In this document: in pieces, positions 4,493-16,650 of the stretch | How positions within the stretch are numbered: position 1 is the first letter of the stretch | Layout of the letters: each line of letters begins with the position of its first letter | NCBI RefSeq assembly: GCF_037126435.1 | Contig: NZ_CP147020.1 | Location: 3,514,001 to 3,578,000, forward strand | Direction of reading: 5' to 3' | DNA length: 64,000 bases | From: Bernardetia sp. ABR2-2B | GTDB lineage: Bacteria > Bacteroidota > Bacteroidia > Cytophagales > Bernardetiaceae | Position numbers and translations under genes: made by a program | The notes under the pieces: generated by a model | What the model saw: the letters and a program-made list of their open reading frames with translations, nothing else | What the model was told of the DNA's origin: nothing | The model's database searches: none

Positions 4493-7400
4493 ATGAATCA
4501 ATTAAAGAAAGAATTTTATCAAATTATTCAATCTGATGAAAAGTATTTTGATTTTATTCAACAAAATGCCTTTGATGGAATTTGGTTTTGGGATTTAGAA
4601 AATCCTCAACAAAAGTGGATAAACCCAAAGTTTTGTTACCTTTTAGGGTATAAATATGAAGAACTACAAGGCAATCAGATTCATAAAATTGTCCATAAAG
4701 ACGACCAAGAAAAAATTCAAGCTATTCTTTCAGGCTATCTAACCTCTTCTGACAAAACCCAAGAAGATGAGGTTCGCTTTGTGCATCAGAATGGAAAGAC
4801 AGTATGGATAACGATGAATGCTCTTTTATTTAAAAATACAGAAGGTAAAAATCATAGAGTAATTGTAACACACAATAATTCAACAAAAGAACACTACCAA
4901 GAAGAAGAATTGATTCGTACCATAAACAGGTATGATTCTATGCTAAACAATCACAGCCTTTTTATTATTCGAACAGATTTAGAAGGAAAATATACCTATG
5001 TCAATGACCACTTTTGTAATAGGATAGGGCTTGTTAGGGAAGAAATTATGGAAAAAGACTCTATGACTGCGATTGTAGAGGAAGACTTTTCAAAATGTAT
5101 TGCTGCTGTAGAGCATTGTTTTGCCAACCCTCATGAAGCTGCTTTTGTACAGCTAAGAAAACCTCTATTTGATAAAAAAACACAGAAAATAACAGCAAAT
5201 TATATATATACAGACTGGGAGTACACACTTATTCTTAATGAAGAGGGAGTACCAAAAGAAATACAATGTGTGGGAGTAGAAGTTACAGAAAAAGTGTTAG
5301 CTCAAAAAAAATTACACAAAAAGAACAAAAAGTTAGAAGCAAGTGAGGAAGAACTACGCCAAAACCTTGAACGCCTAGAAGAAGCGCAAGAGGAAATAAC
5401 ACATACCAAAAAACTTTTAGAGATCTGTAATGAAGCTGCTCAAATAGGAGTTTGGGAGCTTAACTTGTCTGATTATACTACAAAATGGGATAAAGTAATC
5501 AAAGAAATACATGAAGTAGAAGATGACTTTGTTTCTGATGCCCAAACAGGCATTCTTTTTTACAAAGAAGGATATAGTAGAGATAAAATAACTAAAGTAT
5601 TTACAAGAGCTTTAGGGGAAGGAGTACCTTTTGATGAGCAGCTACAAATTATTACTGCTAAAGGTAATGAAATTTGGGTAAGAGCCATTGGCATACCCAC
5701 TTTCCAAAATGGAAAGTGCATAGAAATGTACGGCACTTTTCAAGACATCACAGAAAGAAAGAATGCTGAACTAGAAATAAAAAATAAAGTTCAAGAGCTA
5801 GAAAGCACACAACGAAAACTTGTCTATACTCAAAAACTCTTAGATACCTCCAACGAAGCAGCTCAAATAGGCACTTGGCAGATAGATTTAATCAATAAAG
5901 AAATATCTTGGGGCGCAGTAACCAAAGAAATCCATGAAGTAGCAGAAGATTATCAGTCAGACATGACACATGGTTTTAAATTCCAATTTTATACACCAAA
6001 ATATAAAAAAATAGCTAGTCAGTTAGCTGATGATGCCATTAAAAAAGGTGTTTCTTTTGATAAAGAACTCAAAATAGTTACAGCAAAAAGAAATCAAAAG
6101 TGGGTAAGAGCTATTGGTATTCCAGTTTTTGAAAAGGATAAATGTGTAGAGCTTTATGGTACTTTTCAAGATATAACTTCTCAAAAAAGTCTTGAGATTA
6201 ACCTCAAAGAGAAAGTAGATGAATTAGAAAGCATACAAAAAGAGCTTGTTCATACACAAAAGCTATTAGATACCTCCAATGAAGCTGCACAAATAGGAAC
6301 ATGGGAACTCAACCTAGATGATTTTACTACTAAATGGAATAATATTACTAAAAAAATACATGAGGTAGATAATAATTTTATCTCTACCTCAGAAAATGGT
6401 ATCACTTTTTTTAAAAAAGGATATAGCAGACAAATAATTACAAAAGTATTTACAAGAGCATTAGAAGAAGGCGTTCCCTATGATGAGCAGCTTAAAGTGA
6501 TTACAGCAAAAGGAAACGAAATTTGGGTAAGAGTAATAGGAATACCAACACTTGAGAATGGAAAATGTGTAGAACTTTATGGTACAATACAAAACATAGA
6601 CAAGCAAAAAAAGAACGAAATAAGCCTTCAAGAAAAGCTGGAAGAGCTAGAAATTTCTCAAAAGCAACTTCTACATACAAGTACGCTTTTAGAATCATGT
6701 AATGCTAGTGCAATTATTGGCACTTGGGAATATGACATAAACTCTAGAGATATTATTTGGGATAAGATTGTTCACTCTATATATGGACTTCCAGAAGGGA
6801 TAGATTTGGATACACCAGCAAAAATTAATTTTTTCAAAAAAGGAGAAAACAGAGAAAGAATAATAAAGGCGATTAAAGAAGCACGAGAAGAAGGCAAACC
6901 CTTTGATGAGACTCTAGAACTAATCAATTTTAGAAGTAAAAATAAATGGGTTCGTATCATCGGAATCCCTCAAATGAAAAATGGAAGAACGACTGAATTG
7001 TACGGCACACTACAAGATGTTACAAAGCAAAAAGAAGGGGAGGTAAAACTTAAAGAAAAAGTAGAAGAGTTAGAACAAACCCAAAATGAGCTATTACGTA
7101 CCCAAAACCTTTTAGATACTACAAATGATATAGCACAAATAGGGACATGGGAAATAAACTTAAAAACATCAGAAGTAAAATGGAATAAAGTTACCAAACA
7201 AATACATGAGGAAGCTGAAGATTTCGTAATTGATATCGAAAAAGGAATCTATTATTACAAAGAAGGTAAGGATAGAAAGCGAATTACAGAAGTATTTAAT
7301 AATGCAGTAGAGAAAGCTATTCCTTATGATGAGGAACTGCGTTTAATTACAGCAAAAGGAAACGAAGTTTGGGTCAGAACCATTGGTATTCCTGTAGTTA

Positions 7401-10261
7401 AGAATGGAGAAGTAGTAGAACTATATGGAGCTTTTCATAATATCAATGAACAGAAAAAAGCTAAAGTAAAACTTCAACAAAAAGTACATGAATTAGAACA
7501 AGCACAGCAAGAAATTCAAGACATTCAGACTAAGCTAAGTATTACATTAGACAAAACAGGAATTGGTACATGGGAGTATGATGTAGCAACCAGTAAAATA
7601 TACTGGGATAATCAAGTTAGAAAAATGTTTGGAGTGAATGAGGTTGAAGAGATTACTCACGAAATTGCATCATCAAAAGTTCCTAAACAGAATCTTGTAG
7701 TCATAAACCAAACATTTGAAGATTTGATAATGCAAAAGATTTCAAGCTATCATGTGCAATATCCTGTAAACTTTACTAAAGACTCAATAAGGTATTATGA
7801 ATCTAAAGCTGTATTGATAAAAGATGAAAATAATAGTTCTATTTCTGTTTTTGGAGTTACACAAGATATTACCAAAGAAAAAGAAGCAAAATTTGAACTC
7901 AAACAAAAAGTACAAGAGCTAGAAAAAGCACAGCAAGAAATACAGAGCATCCAAACCAAACTGACTGTAACATTAGAAAAAACTGGTATTGGATTATGGG
8001 ATTTTGATTTAATAACCAATAAAACCTATTGGGATAAGCAGCTCAGAAAAATGTTTGGAGTTACTGAGTTTGAAGAAATTAATAATGAAATTGCTTCAGC
8101 TAAAATTCCTAAAGAAGACCTTGTGGTTATGAATAAAATGCTTGAAGATTTGGTCATGCAAAAAATCCCAAGCTACCATATGAGATATAGAGTAAATCTT
8201 GATAAAGCAACAATAAAATATTATGACTCAAAAGCAGTCTTAATAAAGGATAAAAATGATAAACCTGTAGCTATTTTTGGCATTACTCAAGACATCACAA
8301 AACAAAGAGAAGCAGAGTTTAAACTACAAGAAAAAGTACAGGAGCTAGAAAAAGCACAACAAGGAATTCAAAATATTCAAAATAGACTTACTCTTACCTT
8401 AGAAAAAACAGGAATTGGGCTATGGGAGCTTGATTTGAATACGCAAGAACTGCACTGGGACAACCAAACAAAAAGAATATTTGGTTTAGAGAATAATGAA
8501 GATAACGTTATCAAACGCACAGTAGGAAGACAAAAAGTACACCCAGATGATATAAATGATATAGATGATAACTTGGAGTTAATGTCGCAAGGCAAGCTAA
8601 GTATTTATGAAAAAAAATATCGTACTGTACCTATTAATGGAAAAAATCGCTTCTTAGATACCAAAGCTATTTTAATACGAGATAAAAACCAAAACCCTAC
8701 ACATATTGTTGGAATTACACAAGATATTACTCAGCAAAAAGAATATGAAAAAATCATAGAAGAGCAAAATAAAGAACTAGCAGAATCTGAAAAAGAACTC
8801 CGAAGAGGCATACGAAATATGTATCACCTCCAACAAGATTTAGAAAAGCAAAAACAACAGTTAGAACAAATTTTTGATGCTGTTCCTGCCATGATTTATC
8901 AGTTCAAAAGAGATAATGAAGGGAATGTATCTTTTCCTTTAGTAAGTAGAGGTTCAGAACTTATTTTAGGAGTAAAGTCAGAAGAAATATTAAACAATAA
9001 TGCAAATGATATTTTTGAGGCAATCCATCCAGATGACTTATTAGGATTTCAATCCTCTGTACAAAAATCGGCTGAAACGATGCAAAAATGGGAGTCTGAG
9101 TTGCGTTTACTCAAAAATGGAAAAGAAGTTTGGATACATGCTACTTCAAAGCCTACCCACATGGATGGTGGAGGTGTTATCTGGACGGGAATAATGCAAA
9201 ATATTGATGAGTTAAAAGAAACAGAGAAAAAAATACAAGAAAAAAATAAGGAACTACAAACAACACTTACAGAGCTCAGAGAAACACAATCTCAACTTAT
9301 TCATAATGAAAAAATGACTACGTTGGGACAGCTTGTTGCTAGTATTGCACACGAGATAAATACACCTTTGGGAGCTATTCGTTCTTCGGCAGGAAGTGTT
9401 TATAAAATGCTACAAAATACATTATCCAATTTGCCTAAAGTATTAAAAGAACTGTCAGAACAGGAGTTAGAAGGTTTTAATAAAATGATAGAAAAATCAG
9501 TTGAATCAAATATATTATACTCTTCAAGAGAAAAAAGAAGCATCAAGTATGATTTGATAGCACAATTAGATACCCAAGGAGTTTCTCAATCTGAACGAAT
9601 TGCTGATATTTTGGTAGATGTGGGTTTACATCAAGAAAGCGAATTGTACGAGCCATTTATACAACTTCCTAATACGGTAGAACTTTTTGAAAGTGTTTAC
9701 CAAATTAGTACCATCATGAAAAGTAATGCGACCATCAGAATAGCCACCGAAAAAGCATCTAAAATTATTCTGACACTCAAAAATTTCTCTCGTCAAGACC
9801 ATACAGGAGAAAAGAAACCTACAAAAATAAATGAGAGCCTAGAAAATACCCTTATTCTATACCACAATAAGCTCAAGTATGGTATTGAGGTAATCAGAGA
9901 AATGGAAGCAGTCCCTGTTATCCAAGCCTATGAAGATGAACTGGCTCAAGTGTGGACAAATTTACTGCATAATGCTATTCAAGCAATAAATGGTAAAGGA
10001 AAAATATACCTTAAAACAGAAGAAAGAAATAATAAGATTTTGGTATCAGTAAGAGATAGTGGTAAAGGAATACCTGATGAAGTACAACAACGTATTTTTG
10101 ATGCCTTCTTTACTACTAAGCCAGTAGGAGAAGGAAGTGGTTTGGGACTAAATATTGTCAGAAAAATTATAGACAAACACAATGGTAAAATATGGTTTGA
10201 AACTGAAAATACAGGAGAAGATACAGGGACAACTTTCTTTGTAGAATTACCAATAAAATAA
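4493..10261 (+). CDS. giant multi-PAS sensor histidine kinase (11 PAS domains)
   Basis: This 1922-residue protein has no signal peptide or membrane helix and is probably cytosolic. Eleven PAS domains are visible at about 20-135, 145-270, 306-420, 448-565, 591-705, 731-845, 872-985, 1016-1135, 1159-1275, 1301-1420 and 1457-1580. PAS 3-7 are one family (AQIGTWE...IHEV...ITAKGNE.WVR.IGIP) and PAS 8-10 another (TLEKTGIG.W). Short coiled coils of the type ELEKAQQEIQ separate them. The HisKA helix carries His1620 in HEINTPLGAIR, and the HATPase_c domain has its N box near 1815 and GSGLGL near the end. Catalytic core and linker insertion match the preceding kinase closely, so the pair probably arose by duplication. 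The ATG start follows a 101-bp spacer. Ligands and the partner regulator are unknown. Confidence 0.94.
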   Translation: MNQLKKEFYQIIQSDEKYFDFIQQNAFDGIWFWDLENPQQKWINPKFCYLLGYKYEELQGNQIHKIVHKDDQEKIQAILSGYLTSSDKTQEDEVRFVHQNGKTVWITMNALLFKNTEGKNHRVIVTHNNSTKEHYQEEELIRTINRYDSMLNNHSLFIIRTDLEGKYTYVNDHFCNRIGLVREEIMEKDSMTAIVEEDFSKCIAAVEHCFANPHEAAFVQLRKPLFDKKTQKITANYIYTDWEYTLILNEEGVPKEIQCVGVEVTEKVLAQKKLHKKNKKLEASEEELRQNLERLEEAQEEITHTKKLLEICNEAAQIGVWELNLSDYTTKWDKVIKEIHEVEDDFVSDAQTGILFYKEGYSRDKITKVFTRALGEGVPFDEQLQIITAKGNEIWVRAIGIPTFQNGKCIEMYGTFQDITERKNAELEIKNKVQELESTQRKLVYTQKLLDTSNEAAQIGTWQIDLINKEISWGAVTKEIHEVAEDYQSDMTHGFKFQFYTPKYKKIASQLADDAIKKGVSFDKELKIVTAKRNQKWVRAIGIPVFEKDKCVELYGTFQDITSQKSLEINLKEKVDELESIQKELVHTQKLLDTSNEAAQIGTWELNLDDFTTKWNNITKKIHEVDNNFISTSENGITFFKKGYSRQIITKVFTRALEEGVPYDEQLKVITAKGNEIWVRVIGIPTLENGKCVELYGTIQNIDKQKKNEISLQEKLEELEISQKQLLHTSTLLESCNASAIIGTWEYDINSRDIIWDKIVHSIYGLPEGIDLDTPAKINFFKKGENRERIIKAIKEAREEGKPFDETLELINFRSKNKWVRIIGIPQMKNGRTTELYGTLQDVTKQKEGEVKLKEKVEELEQTQNELLRTQNLLDTTNDIAQIGTWEINLKTSEVKWNKVTKQIHEEAEDFVIDIEKGIYYYKEGKDRKRITEVFNNAVEKAIPYDEELRLITAKGNEVWVRTIGIPVVKNGEVVELYGAFHNINEQKKAKVKLQQKVHELEQAQQEIQDIQTKLSITLDKTGIGTWEYDVATSKIYWDNQVRKMFGVNEVEEITHEIASSKVPKQNLVVINQTFEDLIMQKISSYHVQYPVNFTKDSIRYYESKAVLIKDENNSSISVFGVTQDITKEKEAKFELKQKVQELEKAQQEIQSIQTKLTVTLEKTGIGLWDFDLITNKTYWDKQLRKMFGVTEFEEINNEIASAKIPKEDLVVMNKMLEDLVMQKIPSYHMRYRVNLDKATIKYYDSKAVLIKDKNDKPVAIFGITQDITKQREAEFKLQEKVQELEKAQQGIQNIQNRLTLTLEKTGIGLWELDLNTQELHWDNQTKRIFGLENNEDNVIKRTVGRQKVHPDDINDIDDNLELMSQGKLSIYEKKYRTVPINGKNRFLDTKAILIRDKNQNPTHIVGITQDITQQKEYEKIIEEQNKELAESEKELRRGIRNMYHLQQDLEKQKQQLEQIFDAVPAMIYQFKRDNEGNVSFPLVSRGSELILGVKSEEILNNNANDIFEAIHPDDLLGFQSSVQKSAETMQKWESELRLLKNGKEVWIHATSKPTHMDGGGVIWTGIMQNIDELKETEKKIQEKNKELQTTLTELRETQSQLIHNEKMTTLGQLVASIAHEINTPLGAIRSSAGSVYKMLQNTLSNLPKVLKELSEQELEGFNKMIEKSVESNILYSSREKRSIKYDLIAQLDTQGVSQSERIADILVDVGLHQESELYEPFIQLPNTVELFESVYQISTIMKSNATIRIATEKASKIILTLKNFSRQDHTGEKKPTKINESLENTLILYHNKLKYGIEVIREMEAVPVIQAYEDELAQVWTNLLHNAIQAINGKGKIYLKTEERNNKILVSVRDSGKGIPDEVQQRIFDAFFTTKPVGEGSGLGLNIVRKIIDKHNGKIWFETENTGEDTGTTFFVELPIK

Positions 10262-15902: not shown

Positions 15903-15934
15903 TTTGCAACAAAAGAATCTTTTCCTTTACTTTG
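15903..15934 (+). promoter_or_regulatory. candidate promoter of the tRNA-like array
   Basis: TTTG at 15903-15906 and TTACTTTG at 15927-15934 are 20 bp apart, close to the Bacteroidetes consensus TTTG-N19-TAnnTTTG. Transcription would start near 15941, about 85 bp before the first tRNA-like unit. One position of the downstream element deviates from consensus. Confidence 0.4.
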
Positions 15935-16025: not shown

Positions 16026-16154
16026 TGTAGGATGGTGAAATTTTGGCAGCCACGCCCTTCGGTCTCAGGGGTGAAGGTTTGGGATAAATCAAATGACTAT
16101 TTCTAATATTCATCTGACTAACTACTTCGTGAAGGTTCGAGTCCTTCTCCTACA
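16026..16154 (+). ncRNA. tRNA-like RNA, copy 1
   Basis: A 129-nt unit that folds like a class II (leucine-type) tRNA. Within the unit: acceptor 1-7 TGTAGGA with 123-129 TCCTACA; D stem GTG 10-12 with CAC 26-28 and a GG in the D loop; anticodon-type stem CCCTT 30-34 with AGGGG 42-46; variable-arm stem TGAAG 47-51 with CTTCG 100-104; T stem GAAGG with CCTTC around loop TTCGAGT. The seven-base loop CGGTCTC lacks T33 and purine 37, so it is unlikely to decode. The variable arm has a loop of 48 nt instead of a few. No CCA is encoded; a conserved GC follows. A candidate promoter lies 92-123 bp upstream. Confidence 0.7.
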
Positions 16155-16160
16155 GCAACT

Positions 16161-16183
16161 AAAAGTAAAAAACGTTTGCTTTT
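16161..16183 (+). other. hairpin after tRNA-like copy 1
   Basis: AAAAGTAAA (16161-16169) can pair with TTTGCTTTT (16175-16183) with one G-T wobble. An analogous hairpin with different bases follows copy 2, and a full terminator follows copy 3. It could be a weak terminator or processing signal. Confidence 0.45.
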
Positions 16184-16245
16184 AAGTATTTGAATTTTGT
16201 ATTTAACTGGTAACTGTAAAACTGATTACTGGTAACTGATTAAAT

Positions 16246-16374
16246 TGTAGGATGGTGAAATTTTGGCAGCCACGCCCCTCGGTCTCAGGGGTGAAGGTTT
16301 GGGATAAATCAAATGACTATTTCTGATATTCATCTGACTAACTACTTCGTGAAGGTTCGAGTCCTTCTCCTACA
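16246..16374 (+). ncRNA. tRNA-like RNA, copy 2
   Basis: Second 129-nt unit, 220 bp after copy 1 and nearly identical to it. In the anticodon-type stem the fourth pair is C-G here (CCCCT/AGGGG), T-G in copy 1 and T-A in copy 3, so pairing is kept while bases change. The expanded variable loop differs from copy 1 by one A to G change. A leader of about 45 bp with two GGTAACT motifs precedes it at 16199-16245 and is shared with copy 3. Confidence 0.7.
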
Positions 16375-16397
16375 GCAAAACGTATTTGACAAAAAAA

Positions 16398-16419
16398 GAA
16401 AGTAAAAAAGGTTACTTTC
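16398..16419 (+). other. hairpin after tRNA-like copy 2
   Basis: GAAAGTAA (16398-16405) pairs with TTACTTTC (16412-16419), at the same relative place as the hairpin after copy 1 but with different bases. Confidence 0.45.
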
Positions 16420-16468
16420 ACGTATTTAACTGGTAACTATCTAACTGCTTACTGGTAACTGATTAAAT

Positions 16469-16597
16469 TGTAGGATGGTGAAATTTTGGCAGCCACGCCC
16501 TTCGGTCTCAAGGGTGAAGGTTTGGGATAAATCAAATGACTATTTCTAATATTCATCTGACTAACTACTTCGTGAAGGTTCGAGTCCTTCTCCTACA
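16469..16597 (+). ncRNA. tRNA-like RNA, copy 3
   Basis: Third 129-nt unit, 223 bp after copy 2. The anticodon-type stem is CCCTT/AAGGG, a compensatory change relative to the other two copies. Acceptor, D-loop GG, T loop and loop CGGTCTC are unchanged. A strong terminator begins 14 bp after the acceptor stem, which indicates that the array is transcribed on the plus strand. Confidence 0.7.
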
Positions 16598-16610
16598 GCT
16601 ATCAACTATA

Positions 16611-16650
16611 AAAACTGTTATTTTCTATTTTGAGAATAACAGTTTTTTTT
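16611..16650 (+). terminator. strong terminator of the tRNA-like array
   Basis: AAAACTGTTATT (16611-16622) pairs with AATAACAGTTTT (16635-16646), continuing into a run of eight T. A classic Rho-independent terminator in plus orientation, directly after the third tRNA-like unit and 63 bp before the next open frame. Confidence 0.85.

Follow-up and report, generated by a model that had tools for sequence, protein, structure and literature searches.

Three tandem tRNA-like units in Bernardetia

The window analysed here, a 64,000-nt stretch of contig C1 of Bernardetia sp. ABR2-2B, contains three direct copies of a tRNA-like element on the + strand, each 131 nt long from T1 to C74 and not 129 nt, as a first-pass annotation had it. 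That annotation's picture of three tandem, plus-oriented copies ahead of a terminator was borne out, a hairpin and a T run being found after the third unit. The features of the locus are listed below, with scores from model R1, which was built from 27 homologues.

15903..15934, + strand: possible promoter, TTTG then TTACTTTG, an imperfect match by eye to TTTG..TAnnTTTG, of low confidence for this copy
16026..16156, + strand: tRNA-like unit 1, T1 to C74 (C1:3530026-3530156; model R1 127.9 bits, E 7.3e-35)
16246..16376, + strand: tRNA-like unit 2 (C1:3530246-3530376; model R1 127.3 bits, E 1.1e-34)
16469..16599, + strand: tRNA-like unit 3 (C1:3530469-3530599; model R1 127.4 bits, E 1.0e-34)
16060..16066, + strand: anticodon-type loop CGGTCTC of unit 1 (U35, C36, U37, C38); 16280-16286 in unit 2 and 16503-16509 in unit 3
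16073..16128, + strand: long variable arm of unit 1; 16293-16348 in unit 2 and 16516-16571 in unit 3
Within the unit 1 arm: stem GAAG/CTTC, internal loop with GGGATAAA and CTAACTA, distal hairpin
16155..16156, + strand: encoded G73-C74 of unit 1, a discriminator G like that of host tRNA-Asp, -Asn and -Trp
16610..16650, + strand: intrinsic terminator 3′ of unit 3, arms 16610-16625 and 16632-16647, then a T run

Each unit has the 7-bp acceptor stem (TGTAGGA/TCCTACA), the D-loop GG and the T arm (GAAGG-TTCGAGT-CCTTC) already described for it. The earlier reading of the loop as CGGTCTC, with G33, T37 and GTC at positions 34–36, holds in the window, but G33 turned out to be atypical of a family in which U33 is the rule. 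The 48-nt loop noted in the variable arm is not open: past an asymmetric internal loop that is kept in relatives, another hairpin follows. Ordinary tRNA genes of the host end N73-C74, mostly without an encoded CCA, and the 3′ end of the RNA is therefore that of a normal tRNA gene in this organism.

Across the three copies, 127 of 131 aligned columns are invariant, and one anticodon-stem pair covaries even among these three (T-G, C-G, T-A). A fourth copy, 89% identical, lies in the same genome at C1:1443469. Single-sequence folding of the window units gave no signal against shuffles (z = 0.19, -0.23 and -0.25), so the fold was tested by comparison and the case for it is made by covariation and conservation. 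Elsewhere in the window, a 1922-aa ORF at 4493-10261 has, by eye, the look of a multi-PAS sensor kinase with repeated modules.

We class the RNA as a tRNA-derived non-coding RNA; it matches no Rfam 15 family where tested. Neither Rfam 15 at gathering thresholds nor ARAGORN reported anything anywhere in the window, no tRNA family appeared at the window units under a permissive Rfam threshold, and none of eight member loci, of which six have the distal module of the arm described below and two lack it, gave an Rfam match above the gathering score. With RF00005, the fourth copy reached 18.5 bits (cut-off 29), and the three window copies were absent among the 150 of 460 candidates scored. Literature searches found no such family named in titles or abstract openings, a weak negative since subscription journals fall mostly outside them, and a term search of one review of unusual tRNAs gave no occurrence of Bacteroid- or Cytophag- (PMC7609411).

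A conserved family across Bacteroidota

The window units belong to a large, conserved tRNA-like family found in many Bacteroidota and on some phage contigs. A BLASTN search of 59 genomes, including the host's own, returned loose matches in 52 at E <= 1 and clear homologues, often in tandem, in several families; that other families hold homologues rejects a chance repeat. From these, 39 distinct units were extracted and 27 aligned by sequence, without fitting to structure. When the cloverleaf was applied to this alignment, all 648 of 648 base-pair cells were standard pairs and 12 of 24 pairs had changed on both sides, among them three of the four pairs of the variable stem; the covariation of the 27 units was 0.308, compared with 0.167 for shuffles and at most 0.123 for slid structures.

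At E <= 1e-18, model R1 matched 287 of the 390 genomes drawn from the order, or 272 of 351 when good genomes alone are counted, and 99 of 129 genera are represented. At E <= 1e-15 it matched 69 of 395 genomes drawn from the class and 32 of 296 drawn from the phylum, and two of these 32 lie outside the class; the draws of genomes for order, class and phylum overlap one another. A search of Cytophagales with a model made from the three copies had been proposed in the first-pass annotation, which would have counted relatives with the same loop and variable arm as support, and such relatives extend far beyond the genus. Carriers among the matches listed include Algoriphagus, Cyclobacterium, Hymenobacter, Pontibacter, Spirosoma, Dyadobacter, Fulvivirga, Chitinophaga (a MAG) and Saprospiraceae; three families of small genomes (f7, f13 and f21) have no genome among the 287 carriers at E <= 1e-18. 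Model R1 matches of about 1e-8 to 1e-14 are treated as ordinary tRNAs because tRNA-Leu genes called by ARAGORN on viral contigs reach 54.8 bits, and the looser total for the order, 382 of 390, is thus not a count of carriers. The E <= 1e-18 cut in turn misses members without the variable arm, which score near 1e-17 and of which one was read.

Position counts refer to 219 distinct units, taken from 250 rows after duplicates were dropped; rows are not independent species. In 103 of the 250 rows, the locus came from a search pattern that fixed T35-C36-T37-C38 in the unit hit, these positions being free elsewhere, and U35, C36 and C38 are fixed also in the rows where the pattern left them free. 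Viral units, which the same pattern retrieved, are left out of the counts for these three positions. A misparse of a few rows, put right for the loop positions given here, also affected some other loop and stem counts in the position table. Invariant throughout the 219 units are T8, G9, G12, G2-C71, A72, G73, C74, U35, C36 and C38. Decaying tRNA-Leu pseudogenes with random changes are excluded by the 648 paired cells, the 12 pairs changed on both sides and the invariance of U35, C36, C38 and G73.

Gene anatomy and neighbourhood

The anatomy of the genes was examined at 154 loci with 223 units, a set in which some genomes are counted twice and some loci end before the regulator region discussed below. 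One unit is present at 96 loci and two to five at the other 58, neighbouring units share their strand in 69 of 69 pairs, and unit length runs from 109 to 196 nt with a median of 137. Upstream of 113 of 145 distinct starts stands TAnnTTTG (shuffled mean 19, maximum 32), which we take to be the Bacteroidota type of promoter, and the fuller TTG-N17-23-TAnnTTTG precedes 69 of 145 (shuffled mean 2.6, maximum 8). At 120 of the 154 loci a terminator-like site comes next, compared with 12–18 in ten shuffles. The RNA would be transcribed independently and then, presumably, cut out and CCA-completed like a tRNA.

A gene for one and the same Lrp/AsnC regulator is divergent from the RNA at 76 of 154 loci, its start 122–266 nt away, with Pfam domains PF01037 and PF13404 in the four tested, and the arrangement recurs in two genomes outside the class (L180 and L182). 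In the window's genus the neighbour is instead bioB (by eye) and the regulator gene is unlinked, elsewhere in the genome. The gene was present in 7 of 7 carriers tested and also in 11 of 17 non-carriers, so the regulator is not an exclusive partner, and with the unlinked gene of the host the idea of a dedicated partner was rejected. At three loci (L101, L102 and L109), the Lrp/AsnC gene is followed by one of a set of related genes, sufB-like by eye and encoding 481 aa (336 aa in the truncated case), and the RNA may there lie on the margin of an Fe-S assembly operon.

The variable arm and a member without it

An asymmetric internal loop separates the four-pair variable stem of the arm from its distal hairpin; in this loop GGATAAA is exact in 98 of 219 units, with many close variants, and CTAAC stands opposite in 167 of 219 by a strict pattern. 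A distal module, GRTNGACCAC, is found in 59 of the 219 cellular units. All 37 distinct complete viral units, picked by their D and anticodon arms only, have it in a slightly broader form. Within 16 nt after this motif, 32 of the 37 viral units have a self-complementary 6-mer (1000 shuffles: mean 8.0, maximum 16), in ten different versions: GTGCAC, GCGCGC, GCCGGC, TTGCAA, GCATGC, ATGCAT, AAATTT, TGCGCA, CGGCCG and GCTAGC. These palindromic loops suggest pairing between two RNA molecules. Cellular hairpin loops have no excess of palindromes (8 of 83, with 5.2 expected), and dimer pairing is therefore proposed for the phage form only. The dimer initiation loop of HIV-1 is likewise a palindromic loop of six bases; it belongs to an unrelated molecule, and the pairing principle alone is compared.

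The member without the arm, 77 nt long (L381 1938-2014, genome G021; R1 69.3 bits), keeps U1-A72, G2-C71, U35, C36, U37, C38 and G73 and has A49-U65 together with A51-U63. The arm can therefore go while those positions stay. ARAGORN calls it a tRNA-Asp with anticodon ATC, and with 40.8 bits it clears the cut-off of the Rfam tRNA model. A terminator-like hairpin lies directly 3′ of it (by eye), and other genomes of its genus, scoring at about 1e-16 to 1e-17, may hold more such members.

Copies on phage contigs

One exact pattern matches 56 IMG/VR contigs, 54 of them with complete units, and model R1 gave 87.6–129.5 bits on the 42 viral contigs scanned. Contigs that are related but come from different samples do not count as independent. 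Among ten proteins taken from eight of the contigs are the large subunit of a terminase, a portal protein, an exonuclease, a helicase and a PhoH-like protein, and four of the ten are without a PHROG match. Transfer RNA or tmRNA genes are carried by 25 of the 42 scanned contigs, and in 13 of the 42 a gap of 4–6 nt separates the RNA from a tRNA gene of the same orientation, which in 10 cases is a tRNA-Ser directly before it; this spacing suggests that the ends of the RNA are cut like tRNA ends. The Lrp/AsnC gene is absent from the stretch examined in each of these viral contigs. Named phages searched with two viral units and one window unit, and plasmids searched with a window unit, gave no match. 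A 170-aa protein (L323 2350-2862) has relatives in 18 viral contigs and in many of them is encoded 8–28 nt upstream of the RNA; the one tested has no Pfam or PHROG match.

Determinants of a probable aspartate identity

The anticodon loop is uneven in what it conserves. Position 33 is U in 180 of 219 units and G, A or C in 39; position 34 is G in 189 and otherwise A, C or T, with G34 in 37 of 37 viral units; position 37 is U in 208, C in 6 and G in 5, and never A. On a FastTree phylogeny made without the loop, positions 32–38 need 14, 22, 17, 1, 1, 8 and 1 Fitch steps, the tree resting on a short RNA and the single steps at 35, 36 and 38 fitting the few misparsed rows. The commonest loop, CTGTCTC (148 of 250 rows), differs from the CTGTCAC of host tRNA-Asp at position 37 alone and, together with TTGTCTC, brings U33-G34-U35-C36 to 166 of 250 rows.

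LeuRS requires A73, and the D arm of the RNA resembles that of tRNA-Leu (by eye), yet G73 stands in 219 of 219 units, and in all 37 distinct viral ones, whereas host tRNA-Leu genes end A-C. The C72 and C11-G24 of tRNA-Ser are likewise replaced, with A72 in 219 of 219 and T11 in 198 of 219. The main determinants for AspRS are G73, G34, U35, C36 and C38, with G2-C71 and G10 as further ones (PMC9976931, PMC6523644), and G1-C72 is strictly conserved in bacterial tRNA-Asp (PMC9976931). The family keeps these AspRS determinants except G1-C72, in place of which 218 of 219 units have U1-A72, and G10, present in 24 of 219, with G34 drifting. As neither of these two tested features is kept, the RNA is not counted as a member of tRNA-Asp. 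SerRS is a poorer fit than AspRS, given A72, U11 and its independence of the anticodon, and LeuRS, which needs A73, is poorer still.

Several points weigh against recognition by AspRS: the loss of G1-C72, the rarity of G10, the 17 changes at G34, a strong determinant in bacteria, and the fact that position 37 has changed less often than position 34 (8 vs 17 steps). Class II enzymes, AspRS among them, also approach a tRNA from the side of the variable arm, where a long arm may hinder. They come to the acceptor from the major groove (PMC7373986). On the other side of the balance, one AspRS match above the family cut-off was found in 25 of 26 genomes and two in none; a second AspRS was not found among the 26.

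Decoding and EF-Tu

The host has ordinary tRNAs for all 20 amino acids, including Leu TAA, TAG, CAA, CAG and GAG and Asp GTC, from a list that may be incomplete, as 150 of 460 first-look candidates were scored and no Ala TGC was among them. A missing isoacceptor is thereby unlikely, and a purpose other than decoding, as the first-pass annotation proposed, is likely. The loop agrees with this, with a purine at 37 in 5 of 219 units and U33 free to change. A UCUC seed for pairing with an mRNA was also considered, and the changes at 37 are mild evidence that the target is not a fixed one; a pairing between UCUC and the GGGA of the RNA's own arm (by eye) is not kept across lineages.

In the T stem, G49-C65 is present in 216 of 219 units and A51-U63 in 200, with a mismatch at 51-63 in 17 and G51-C63 in none; the 37 viral units have A-U at 51-63 in 22, U-A in 9 and no pair in 6, and again no G51-C63. 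Host tRNA-Asp has G49-U65 and G51-C63. These are strong EF-Tu pairs and are replaced by A49-U65 and A51-U63 in the non-proteinogenic tRNA-Gly of S. aureus (PMC4052509). A51-U63 suggests weak EF-Tu binding, and judged by this pair the RNA likely escapes EF-Tu, while the 17 units with a mismatch at 51-63 count against a charged donor.

Relation to known RNAs

The RNA is like tRNA-Asp in G73, G2-C71, U35, C36, C38, a G34 in most units and a usual loop identical but for position 37. It is unlike it in U1-A72, rare G10, a Leu-like D arm, the lack of A37, a weak EF-Tu pair at 51-63 and a length of 109–196 nt with a long variable arm (one 77-nt member lacks the arm). The non-proteinogenic tRNA-Gly species of Staphylococcus, donors for pentaglycine bridges, share with it a chargeable look, A51-U63 and an existence beside ordinary tRNAs. 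They differ in their amino acid, and the RNA has a large conserved arm and no known transferase; they also have G18-G19 replaced, whereas the RNA keeps the GG of GGCAG in 27 of 27 aligned units. Allo-tRNA and tRNA-Sec resemble it in the long variable arm, G73 and unusual anticodons, but the RNA has A72, a normal 7-bp acceptor and 5-bp T stem, invariant U35-C36-C38 and a longer, structured arm.

Like tmRNA, it has tRNA-like ends on a larger stable RNA, and tmRNA genes occur on some of the same phage contigs (L313, L342, L350 and L361 by ARAGORN, the L361 call being uncertain). Unlike tmRNA, it has a full anticodon arm and no RF00023 match at the units, and the genome's own tmRNA lies at C1:66638-67036. 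YrlA, a bacterial Y RNA, is a non-coding RNA that mimics tRNA and has an extra arm; the likeness lies in both these traits, yet RF02553 has no match at the units. At another place in the host genome (L073 1260-2160; C1:4796259-4797160) is another set of odd tRNA-like genes, three of which have RF00005 matches spanning 109–134 nt and inserts that repeat a GGTCAA...TTACTTC-like motif (by eye). One weak YrlA match, 25.3 of 69 bits, falls there below the cut-off, and the set lies between a cysS-like ORF (by eye) upstream and a gene for a 798-aa protein with a weak Prok-RING_4 match downstream.

Competing explanations

The reading we favour, and to which we give an even chance, is that the RNA is recognised by AspRS, charged and used outside translation, without decoding. 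Of the roles first suggested for it, aminoacyl donor, regulator or decoy, the data favour the donor type, with aspartate, although the charging is something we infer from the conserved determinants.

The foremost alternative, possible though on balance unlikely, is an uncharged structural or regulatory RNA, in which the tRNA body would be a platform for binding a protein or the ribosome and the arm the working part, the phage copies homodimerising through their palindromic loops and the Lrp/AsnC regulator controlling the RNA. The conserved internal loop (GGAUAAA and CUAAC), the distal module in 59 of 219 cellular and, in its wider form, 37 of 37 viral units, the 32 viral palindromes and the divergent regulator gene at 76 of 154 loci all fit such a role. 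It leaves the invariance of U35, C36, C38, G73 and G2-C71 unexplained, however, and has to accommodate a member without the arm and cellular loops without a palindrome excess.

SerRS does not read the anticodon, so a class II tRNA serylated through G73 and the long arm, in the manner of allo-tRNA or tRNA-Sec, would leave the anticodon loop free for another role, and the invariant U35, C36 and C38 would be unexplained. This is improbable, even though G73 is universal among the 219 units and the long variable arm is present in all members read but one. SerRS recognises these two features (PMC7609411), and a mostly R4-Y69 pair with G2-C71 also fits the bacterial serine set (PMC9976931). Against it stand A72 in place of C72 in every unit, T11 in 198 of 219, host tRNA-Ser genes that carry A, T or G at 73, and the member that lacks the arm SerRS grips.

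That the RNA is a working odd tRNA for Asp codons, perhaps in stress or phage infection, is very improbable: U33-G34-U35-C36 in 166 of 250 rows, U33-G34 in 37 of 37 viral units and the place of the RNA within phage tRNA arrays speak for it, but position 37 is never A and seldom a purine, 33 is other than U in 39 of 219, position 34 can be occupied by A, T or C, the last of which would read Glu codons, an ordinary tRNA-Asp(GTC) exists in the host and on five scanned phage contigs (L320, L335, L342, L345 and L361), and ARAGORN and Rfam do not take the window copies as tRNAs. Least credible is a role in host–phage conflict, with the RNA acting as a decoy or a spare when anticodon nucleases or toxins that cleave tRNA are at work. 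The 56 IMG/VR contigs, some with phage genes (terminase, portal, PhoH-like, helicase), and the tandem copies at 58 of 154 loci would lend themselves to this, but not the housekeeping-like distribution of the RNA over the order (272 of 351 good genomes) or its old place beside the Lrp/AsnC gene.

A possible aminoacyl donor outside translation

Under charging by AspRS and use outside translation, the ordinary enzyme would recognise the RNA and most likely load it with aspartate. The anticodon loop, with no A and rarely a purine at 37 and with U33 and G34 free to change, would bar it from decoding, the T stem would keep EF-Tu binding poor, and a putative partner gripping the long variable arm would use the aspartyl group or the state of charging. 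A bolder version, speculative and rather doubtful as a whole, makes the RNA a dedicated aspartyl donor of Bacteroidota: AspRS would charge it, EF-Tu would reject it, and an arm-binding transferase would move the aspartate onto the wall, a lipid, a protein or a small molecule as non-ribosomal acceptor; phages would have a copy to themselves, its palindromic loops forming dimers, since the pathway is important in infection. Two candidates for the partner transferase show no co-distribution with the RNA and were set aside, PF09924 being found in 0 of 22 genomes tested and PF13480 in 7 of 10 carriers and 10 of 12 non-carriers.

Even uncharged, the RNA would be an uncharacterised structured RNA of wide distribution whose determinants can be tested. 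Charging would make it a tRNA in which natural selection has separated the charging parts from the decoding parts across much of the phylum, and would point to a novel aspartate-transfer reaction.
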